A stretch of DNA of 60,901 bases, taken from positions 1-60,901 of the forward strand of contig JAPYSB010000011.1 in NCBI GenBank assembly GCA_029936675.1. The letters run 5' to 3'. The stretch is from Dehalococcoidia bacterium. GTDB taxonomy: Bacteria; Chloroflexota; Dehalococcoidia; Lucifugimonadales; UBA826. This document shows, one piece after another, positions 24,405 to 27,805 of this stretch (the first letter of the stretch is position 1; each line of letters begins with the position of its first letter). The notes below the pieces were generated by a model. It was not told the origin of the DNA and searched no databases. It worked only from the letters and a program-made list of their open reading frames with translations. A program made the position numbers and the translations under genes.

Positions 24405-25706
24405 TTGAATAAGTCGGAAAGTGTGACGCCGAAACTTTATTATGGTTGGCTGGTTCTCGCCGTATGCTTCTTTATTGTGATGTGTTCATCCGGTGTTCGG
24501 TCCAGTATGGGTGTTTTTATAACCCCAATGGAGGTGGATATGCAGTGGGCCCGAAACGATATTACCAGGGTACTTTCTTTGGGAATATTTGTGGGGGCAC
24601 TGTCCTTTATAGTAATGGGCTATCTTTATGATAAATATGGTGGTCGAAGGGTGATATCGGCCGCTCTAATAATGGTCGGTATATCTGTCTTTTTACTAAG
24701 CCGGGTCAACTCAATTTTCGGATTAATTTTGATATACGGGATACTTGGAAGTTTTGCATCTAGCGGTGCTTCTTTTGTAACTATCCACTCCTTACTGGCA
24801 AAATGGTTCTACAGACGGAGAGGCTTAGCTATGAGCTTGTCTGCTGCCGGAGGGTCTATCGGTCCTTTGTTGTTTGCACCATTTTGTGCGTTTCTGATAG
24901 AAGCTTTTGATTGGAGGACCGCATTTTTATTCATAGGTGGAATGGTTTTGTTTATAGGAGCTCCTCTGTCGGCTCTTTTACTAAGAGATGACCCACTGGG
25001 TCAGATTCCAGATAGTGAAAGGGATGAAACCGGGATTCAAGATAAAGATAAAGGTAAAGCGCAAGTGGAAATGGAAGGGCCATTATTTACCAGTCGCTGG
25101 AAGCAGGCTTTATCCACTTCTCCTTTCTGGCAGTTATCTGCTGCTTATCTTGTTTGTGGTATTACCACTAACATCATTTCCGTACATTTTGTTCCATTTG
25201 CAGAAGATCAAGGAGTACCCAAGATAACAGCTGCCACGATTTTTGGGATAATGATGGGGTTAAATTCCGTGGGGGTAATTTCTGCAGGAGTATTGTCGCA
25301 AAAATTCAGTCAACATAGAGTGTTAGGTTTTACATATGCATTGCGGGGAATTGCTTATTTAGCCTTGTTAACGATAGGTGGAACAACTGGAATGTGGGCG
25401 TTTGCCTTAATAGCTGGAATGTCGTGGATAGCCACTGCTTCAGTAACTTCTTCCCTCGTGGCAGATATATACGGGGTAAGAAATTTAGGAACATTAAACG
25501 GCATGTCTAACATGGTTCATCAGATTGGAGGCGCCGTATCGGTACTTGTTGCCGGGGAACTTCAGGCAGTGACTGGATCCTACGAGATACCTTTCGCGAT
25601 TGCTGGCGCGACTTTATTGTTTGCCAGCATAGCGGCTTTTAGTGTCAAAGAGAAGAAGTACTCATATAGATATTCTAGAGTGCCTGTTGCAGCCGTTTCT
25701 TCTTAA
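24405..25706 (+). CDS. MFS transporter (monocarboxylate/oxalate-like)
   Basis: This is a twelve-helix major-facilitator permease (433 aa). It opens YYGWLVLAVCFFIVMC and has the loop 2-3 motif GYLYDKYGGRR. The long linker after helix 6 is charged (about residues 195-225). The N-terminal YYGW pattern is typical of monocarboxylate/oxalate-formate-like exchangers. The likely start is TTG 24405 with a poor ribosome site. Its stop is only two bases from the stop of the MerB-like gene on the other strand. Confidence 0.85.
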   Translation: MNKSESVTPKLYYGWLVLAVCFFIVMCSSGVRSSMGVFITPMEVDMQWARNDITRVLSLGIFVGALSFIVMGYLYDKYGGRRVISAALIMVGISVFLLSRVNSIFGLILIYGILGSFASSGASFVTIHSLLAKWFYRRRGLAMSLSAAGGSIGPLLFAPFCAFLIEAFDWRTAFLFIGGMVLFIGAPLSALLLRDDPLGQIPDSERDETGIQDKDKGKAQVEMEGPLFTSRWKQALSTSPFWQLSAAYLVCGITTNIISVHFVPFAEDQGVPKITAATIFGIMMGLNSVGVISAGVLSQKFSQHRVLGFTYALRGIAYLALLTIGGTTGMWAFALIAGMSWIATASVTSSLVADIYGVRNLGTLNGMSNMVHQIGGAVSVLVAGELQAVTGSYEIPFAIAGATLLFASIAAFSVKEKKYSYRYSRVPVAAVSS

Positions 25707-25708
25707 GT

Positions 25709-26365
25709 TTATAAACTTTGTTTCCATGACATATAATCTGATCGGCCCCTCTCCTTAAACCGAGGGTTGCTGAATCGCCCCATAAATTCTTCAAGGGTTT
25801 GCGTGACTTGATCAGCGGAATTAGGGTCGTAGTGAATCCAGTTGTTCAAATGCTCTTCCGACCGGAAGAAATTCATGTTTACTCAATTTCTCCCGGCGGT
25901 GTCCCCGCCTCCCAAAAATCCGAATCCGTAAATAGAAACACCTACAATCCCTTCCGCCGGTATTGAACTAAGAATCTTTCCATCCTTGACTGTCACGTTT
26001 ATTGGATCATTACAATCTAGGCAGACACTATCAATTTGGACTGTCTTACCGGGGAATAACCAGCAAACTGCTAGGGATTCAAAAGCTCATTGTCCCCACC
26101 ATTTGCTTTCACCATTTACAGTAATTTTGTAATGAGTTGGCACGTTATTAAACGGTGCGAAACTACCAATTATATCGGTGCCGGGAACGAGCCAATATCC
26201 TGCCATCTTTCCAGGGCCCATAAGATCAGTTAGAGATGTTCTCGCCTCTTCTACCTCTATCTCAAGCGCTGAAGCTATTTCTGTGTAATGAGGAGCCACC
26301 CCAGTTGATACGATGGTTTTCATTATGTGAGTGTACAGTTGATCGAGAGTTTTTAGATCAGTCAT
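25709..26365 (-). CDS. Alkylmercury-lyase (MerB) family protein, predicted double selenoprotein
   Basis: One frame of 218 codons runs from ATG 26365 (AAGG nine bases upstream) to TAA 25709, broken only by two TGA codons at residues 93 and 161. MerB is 212 aa. A winged-helix-like N-terminus (1-60) leads to APFNNVPTHYKITVNG. TGA-93 (before AFESL) falls where MerB has catalytic Cys96, with Glu96 near the position of Asp99. CLDCNDP (about 109-115) matches the middle Cys region. TGA-161, just before VNMNFFRSEEHL, falls where MerB has Cys159. Each TGA is followed by a SECIS-like hairpin. The best reading is selenocysteine at both sites. A pseudogene with two nonsense mutations is less likely. Organomercury cleavage is not shown; no mer genes are nearby. 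Confidence 0.8.
25849..25873 (-). promoter_or_regulatory. SECIS-like hairpin after the second TGA of the MerB-like gene
   Basis: On the minus strand, 12 bases after TGA (25885-25883), TTCTTCC pairs with GGAAGAG around the loop GGTC. An AAT/ATT extension follows past one bulged C. The loop begins 19 bases after the TGA and starts with GG, like the GGUCU apical loop of E. coli fdhF. Bacterial SECIS elements lie at this distance. It is coding sequence, so it also encodes amino acids. Confidence 0.6.
26054..26080 (-). promoter_or_regulatory. SECIS-like hairpin after the first TGA of the MerB-like gene
   Basis: Twelve bases after TGA (26089-26087), CTAGCA pairs with TGCTGG around the three-base loop GTT. 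A 2x2 internal loop (CC/TT) and a lower stem GAAT/ATTC extend it. The loop starts 18 bases after the TGA and begins with G, as needed for SelB binding in known bacterial elements. Its architecture resembles the hairpin after the second TGA. Confidence 0.6.
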
Positions 26366-26533: not shown

Positions 26534-27805
26534 ATTAAATTATTAGGACAGCGCACGATTTTTTATGGCTGGATCGTGGTGGGTGTGATGGCAATTGCTA
26601 GTGCAGTTAGCATGGGCATGGGTTCATTAAATTTTGGGTTATATATCAAACCAATGGGGGAACAGTTAGGTATTGGGCGTGCTTCTTTCGGCTGGGCTTC
26701 CACCTTTAGGAGCATTTCAAGTGCTGCAACGAGCCCTATTATAGGCAGATTGCTCGATCGCTATGGAGCCAGATGGATTCTTGCAGGTTCAACCATAATT
26801 ACTGGATCGTGCATGGTTGGCCTTGCATATACACGTGAAGCATGGCAACTCATGGTTTTGTTTTCAATAATGGGTCTAGTCGGTATGAGTGGACCAGGTG
26901 CCCTTACTACCTCGGTGCCACCATCTAAGTGGTTTGTTCGAAACAGAGGAAAAGCTTTAGCCGTTACAGCGATAGGTGTTTCCTTGGGGGCCTTAATTTT
27001 TGTTCCGCTCACCCAAATTTTCATAGATAAATACACTTGGAACACCTCTTGGATTATATTAGCGATAGTTGGGGTGATTATTGTTGTTCCCCTTTCTGTT
27101 ATTTTCGTAAGAAGACAGCCTGAGGACATAGGATTACTTCCTGATGGCGACAACCCCCTCGCGGTGTCTGCCGTCGAGGACATCAATGATGAATTTTCGT
27201 GGACCTTAAAGGAAGCGGTAAAAACAAAAAGCATGTGGTTTCTTATAATTGCTTTTTCTATTCTGTCTTTGGGAATACTGACGTTGGCCCTGCACAGGAT
27301 ACCGGCGTTTATGGATAGAGGACTGGATCCCACGTTAGTCTCGCTTGCGACAGCTTTTGATGCTGTATGTGCCGGGTTTGGTAGTTTTGCCGGAGGAATG
27401 TTGGTGAGGCGACTTCAGCCTAAATTTATAGGAGCCTCAGCATTCTTGATGTTAGCCACGGCGAGTGTGATGTCAATCTATGCGTATGGGTTTTGGTTGA
27501 TGTTTTGGTCGATGGCTATTTTTGGGCTTGGGATAGGCATTAATTCATTCACACAAAATTATATCTGGGCGGATTATTTTGGAAGAGGCAACCTAGGCAG
27601 CATCCGAGGATTTGTTATGCCTATCACTTTGTTTGTGGGATCTTTTGGCGCTCCTGCTGCAGGGTATGTATTGGATATCACCGGATCGTATGATCCTGCT
27701 TGGTGGGCTGGTGTTGTTTTGATGTTGATAGGAGCCTTAGTCTTTGTTCTTGCTGATAAACCCAAACATAATGCACTCCTCTTTAATCAAAACCCTAGGG
27801 AATAA
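26534..27805 (+). CDS. MFS transporter, probably starting at a rare ATT codon
   Basis: This twelve-helix major-facilitator permease (423 aa from 26534) has the opening KLLGQRTIFYGWIVVGVM, typical of MFS proteins beginning just before helix 1. The loop motif GRLLDRYGARW is at the expected place. The frame is closed by TGA at 26519, and there is no ATG, GTG or TTG between it and GTG 26576, which would lose FYGWI at the head of helix 1. AGGAG (26521-26525) stands eight bases before ATT 26534, so ATT is the best start. It is divergent from the MerB-like gene. The substrate is unknown. Confidence 0.85.
   Translation: MKLLGQRTIFYGWIVVGVMAIASAVSMGMGSLNFGLYIKPMGEQLGIGRASFGWASTFRSISSAATSPIIGRLLDRYGARWILAGSTIITGSCMVGLAYTREAWQLMVLFSIMGLVGMSGPGALTTSVPPSKWFVRNRGKALAVTAIGVSLGALIFVPLTQIFIDKYTWNTSWIILAIVGVIIVVPLSVIFVRRQPEDIGLLPDGDNPLAVSAVEDINDEFSWTLKEAVKTKSMWFLIIAFSILSLGILTLALHRIPAFMDRGLDPTLVSLATAFDAVCAGFGSFAGGMLVRRLQPKFIGASAFLMLATASVMSIYAYGFWLMFWSMAIFGLGIGINSFTQNYIWADYFGRGNLGSIRGFVMPITLFVGSFGAPAAGYVLDITGSYDPAWWAGVVLMLIGALVFVLADKPKHNALLFNQNPRE

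Follow-up and report, generated by a model that had tools for sequence, protein, structure and literature searches.

On the minus strand of a 60,901-nucleotide stretch of Dehalococcoidia DNA, here called the window, lies what we judge from sequence, with a probability of roughly 95%, to be an intact gene encoding a MerB-family protein with two selenocysteines (Sec). The gene (positions 25709–26365; 218 codons plus TAA) reads from an ATG at 26365 to a TAA at 25709, and its only internal stops are TGA codons 93 and 161; this frame, described in the first-pass annotation, was reproduced by translation. With TGA rendered as U, the 218-residue product runs M...WWGQ-U93-AFESLAVCWLFPG...GRN-U161-VNMNFFRSEEH...KQSL-TAA, and annotation under table 11 would give a 92-residue fragment. 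Two bases separate the end of the TAA (25709) from that of the convergent MFS frame (25706), which bears out the gap reported earlier. The window contig (C48) is part of a 2.19 Mb genome, 96% complete, and the host is a marine SAR202-type Chloroflexota bacterium.

In MerB, an enzyme that cleaves carbon-mercury bonds, Cys96 and Cys159 bind the metal and Asp99 serves as proton donor. Both TGA codons fall on the metal-binding positions: codon 93 (26087–26089, minus strand, as are all features below) at that of Cys96 and codon 161 (25883–25885) at that of Cys159, by phmmer alignment and by comparison with relatives. Against MerB2 (5c17), phmmer aligned U93 to the Cys of FAWCAISTL and U161 to the Cys of GTCKQIHYF; hhalign gave the same pairing with the metal-binding cysteines of MerB and MerB2. 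The proposed placement of the TGAs on the catalytic cysteines is thus upheld by both alignments, and it is repeated in 34 loci. Two stops placed at random would strike exactly this pair among the 218 codons with a probability of about 4e-5, with the extra factor for both being TGA not included. In the alignment of relatives, Glu96 (26078–26080) occupies the Asp99 position, which is Asp in an outer Cys/Sec group and Ala in loci L040 and L042. Between the two TGAs, a C115-LD-C118 motif (26012–26023) has both Cys columns invariant in relatives, and C115 aligns with the conserved non-catalytic (third) Cys of MerB. The N-terminal helical domain (26186–26365) is probably the winged-helix-like N-domain of MerB, as suggested by a near full-length plasmid MerB alignment and by helices in a low-confidence model. 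That AlphaFold2 model, built on six close sequences, had a mean pLDDT of 47 and was left out as evidence.

The gene occurs in 20 of 197 related genomes searched, the window's own counted; searches of the class and phylum added further loci, and a profile survey covered Chloroflexota. Most of the relatives' sequences are assemblies of uncultured organisms, and named records among them include the SAR202 isolates OSU_TB12, OSU_BB09 and SAR202-II-177A, as well as UBA6495 and UBA7891, hence the SAR202-type assignment of the host. Over the loci read, the states at sites 1 and 2 were Sec/Sec in 34, Cys/Sec in 25 and Cys/Cys in 13, with no Sec/Cys among all loci read at both sites; Cys is the only alternative to TGA at either. 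The Sec/Sec loci range from members of the window's own genus to a different class of Chloroflexota, at identities from 95% down to about 40%. Within the genus, all seven gene-holding genomes carry both TGAs (79–94% identity to the window's copy, self excluded), and Sec/Sec forms near 40% identity occur in further families and, in a single genome (G664), in a different class. Close relatives with Cys/Sec are L054, L055, L056 and L084; more distant MerB-like genes are Cys/Sec or Cys/Cys. A one-Sec form near classical MerB was also seen in L046:1501-1860 and L047:1501-1860, which retain Cys96 but have TGA in place of the Cys159 codon; over 157 residues, L046 scores 139–146 bits against the strict MerB models.

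The first-pass annotation had asked whether the host holds selA, selB, selC and selD. All were located in the same genome: selA at 530 bits (cut-off 268), selB at 351 bits (cut-off 242), selD at 384 bits (cut-off 125), and a tRNA-Sec with anticodon TCA (UCA). The selD gene (L018:1501-2424) is itself that of a selenoprotein, with a TGA in its catalytic site, CAGU. Across the survey, at least one Sec form is present in 55 genomes, 53 of which have selA or selB above cut-off, the other two being 72% and 83% complete; by contrast, neither gene was found in 6 of 12 Cys-only genomes (p = 2e-4).

A candidate bSECIS hairpin lies just 3' of each TGA, with strong evidence for TGA-161 and moderate evidence for TGA-93. 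The hairpin after TGA-161 (25853–25870; UUCUUCC-GGUC-GGAAGAG) places its loop 19 bases from the TGA; both spacing and loop are close to those of the E. coli fdhF element. Its pair cells are paired in 95% of cases among 59 distinct Sec forms, compared with 49% among 13 Cys forms. The loop is GGTC in 49 of the 59 Sec forms, and the stem shows rare T-A in place of C-G. Codon choice in the loop is also biased: CGG encodes 52 of 55 Arg and TCG 54 of 59 Ser, while in the rest of these genes each codon accounts for about 21% of its residue. The preference extends to the window's own AT-rich genus, with the proviso that the sequences are related and binomial p-values overstate certainty. For the hairpin after TGA-93 (26054–26080; GAA..CUAGCA-GUU-UGCUGG..UUC), the stem is kept and GU is present in the loop in 32/32 distinct Sec forms, in 2/4 close Cys forms and in 5/34 far Cys forms. 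The evidence here is weaker because the conserved peptide also fixes the stem; folding z-scores are weak, and the stem persists in close Cys forms as well. Rfam gave no credible match across the region.

Were the gene a decaying pseudogene, the TGAs would be premature stops and the downstream sequence a relic. Two in-frame stops under the standard code accord with such decay, as does one relative, L042/L067 (L042:1501-1905, genome G157), whose copy is interrupted between its two TGAs by a TAG and a change of frame and looks like either a decayed gene or an assembly error. Yet both TGAs stand at the catalytic sites in 34 loci, and the homologue comparison called for at the outset found precisely these sites occupied by TGA or Cys, with no scattered stops or frameshifts in nearly all copies. 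Moreover, dN/dS is 0.10, 0.09 and 0.10 in codons 1–92, 94–160 and 162–218, the most distant pairs being omitted since synonymous distances are saturated there, and purifying selection is equal on all three segments split by the TGAs. Conservation of the TGA sites and these ratios reject for the family a random pseudogene, which had already been considered implausible, and for the window's copy we hold decay to be extremely improbable. Only slightly less remote is a changed code or plain read-through, with TGA decoded in this lineage as a standard amino acid such as Cys or Trp. Such decoding would fit the alignment of TGA with Cys in homologues, but TGA is the ordinary terminator of 6 of the window's 49 genes, so the genetic code is unchanged, and in L028 and L029 the relatives' copy of the MerB-like gene itself ends in TGA. 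The tRNA-Sec, SelA, SelB and CAGU SelD, and the hairpins 3' of the TGAs, also speak against it. Replacement of both catalytic cysteines by selenocysteine, as first proposed, thus appears strongly supported by machinery, homologues, hairpins, selection and co-occurrence, and we infer that Sec is inserted in the living cell.

In a midpoint-rooted tree of 74 proteins, most Sec/Sec forms group in a single, well supported clade (99/99). Four Cys/Sec members are nested within it at three separate points, L054 together with L056, L055, and L084; they are most readily explained as apparent reversions of site 1 to Cys, some of these branches being weakly placed. Because the remaining MerB-like proteins are Cys/Sec or Cys/Cys, the tree, rooted in this way, suggests that site 2 turned to Sec before site 1. 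A remote group with a CAVDFL motif (L079:1501-1812 and L080:1501-1770) is likewise Sec/Sec and adjoins the Cys/Cys locus L081; it possibly represents a second origin of double-Sec MerB.

With two selenocysteines in place, the protein could work as follows. SelB with Sec-tRNA would recognise the short hairpin that closely follows each UGA on its 3' side, and Sec would be inserted at residues 93 and 161, the metal-gripping positions Cys96 and Cys159 of MerB. The two selenolates would then hold the metal of an organometallic compound such as R-Hg+, Glu96 would act as proton donor in place of Asp99, and the carbon-metal bond would be protonolysed, leaving RH and the metal held by two Se. Sec/Sec/Glu in the places of Cys/Cys/Asp speaks for the same protonolysis, and carbon-metal lyase chemistry seems probable on these grounds; that mercury is the substrate seems an even bet.

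The lyase step has a rival that leaves the Sec pair untouched, namely a protein that kept the MerB fold but serves to bind metals or metalloids or to carry out redox reactions. The label 'MerB family' given at first stands for Pfam MerB (PF03243), which residues 74–193 match at 73.3 bits (gathering cut-off 27), and fails for the strict organomercurial lyase models NF009710 and NF033555, at 37.9 and 33.3 bits against cut-offs of 193 and 200. Those low scores would suit a protein other than a lyase, as would the change of Asp99 to Glu or Ala and the added conserved CxxC. The strict Cys96/Asp99/Cys159 set is conserved in position, with different residues (predicted Sec93/Glu96/Sec161). Against this rival stand chemically matching residues at all three catalytic positions (Sec/Cys, Sec, Glu/Asp) in nearly all members, and we regard it as the less likely reading, though one of some weight. 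The genome yielded no MerA above cut-off, a point also in the rival's favour; the best hit, the one MerA candidate, was rejected as a dihydrolipoyl dehydrogenase. The MerB-like gene forms no cluster with mer genes: it lies by itself between two MFS transporter genes, convergent with one (24405–25706) and divergent from the other (26576–27805), and this neighbourhood is conserved throughout the genus. With neither MerA nor adjoining mer genes, genomic context gives no support to a mercury role. Against ArsK, a model for arsenite exporters, both flanking MFS proteins reach no more than 39 and 44 bits of 400.

Ordinary gene prediction would cut the gene after 92 codons, and surveys based on such calls would miss the double-Sec form. 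We raise tentatively, as a doubtful prospect, that a widespread Chloroflexota enzyme cleaves carbon-metal bonds by a selenolate pair and provides a dark-ocean route of methylmercury breakdown, uncounted because standard gene calling truncates the gene. Selenium binds mercury tighter than sulfur, so a double-Sec organometal lyase would be a natural test of Sec use and metal release. The natural C/C, C/U and U/U series within one family should make the effect of each selenium measurable, helped by the apparent site-1 returns to Cys.

A literature search, beyond whose reach lay the primary SaoL and new-selenoprotein papers (J Bacteriol 2023, mSystems 2025), found no paper with Sec at both MerB catalytic positions, and a word search of two recent ocean merB papers found mention of neither SAR202 nor selenium. 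Reviews list SaoL, a MerB-like organometallic lyase whose single Sec sits in a CU motif (PMC13188914; under the name alkylmercury lyase MerB-like protein in PMC9312934). The window protein resembles SaoL in belonging to the MerB superfamily, containing Sec and having a proposed organometal substrate; however, it scores 43.7 bits against the SaoL model NF040728 (cut-off 140), and it has Sec at both catalytic positions, with no Cys beside the second. The CAGU-type SelD of the same genome likewise has Sec encoded by TGA and shares the machinery, but is an unrelated enzyme with one Sec rather than two. No relative was found on viral contigs, and plasmids held ordinary MerB only, about 25% identical to the window protein, whose gene lacks a mer operon. 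With MerB and MerB2 (PDB 1s6l, 5c17) the protein shares the Pfam MerB domain, the catalytic positions, length and the conserved third Cys, and differs from them in the residues themselves: Cys/Cys/Asp (or Ser) in the known enzymes, predicted Sec/Sec/Glu here.
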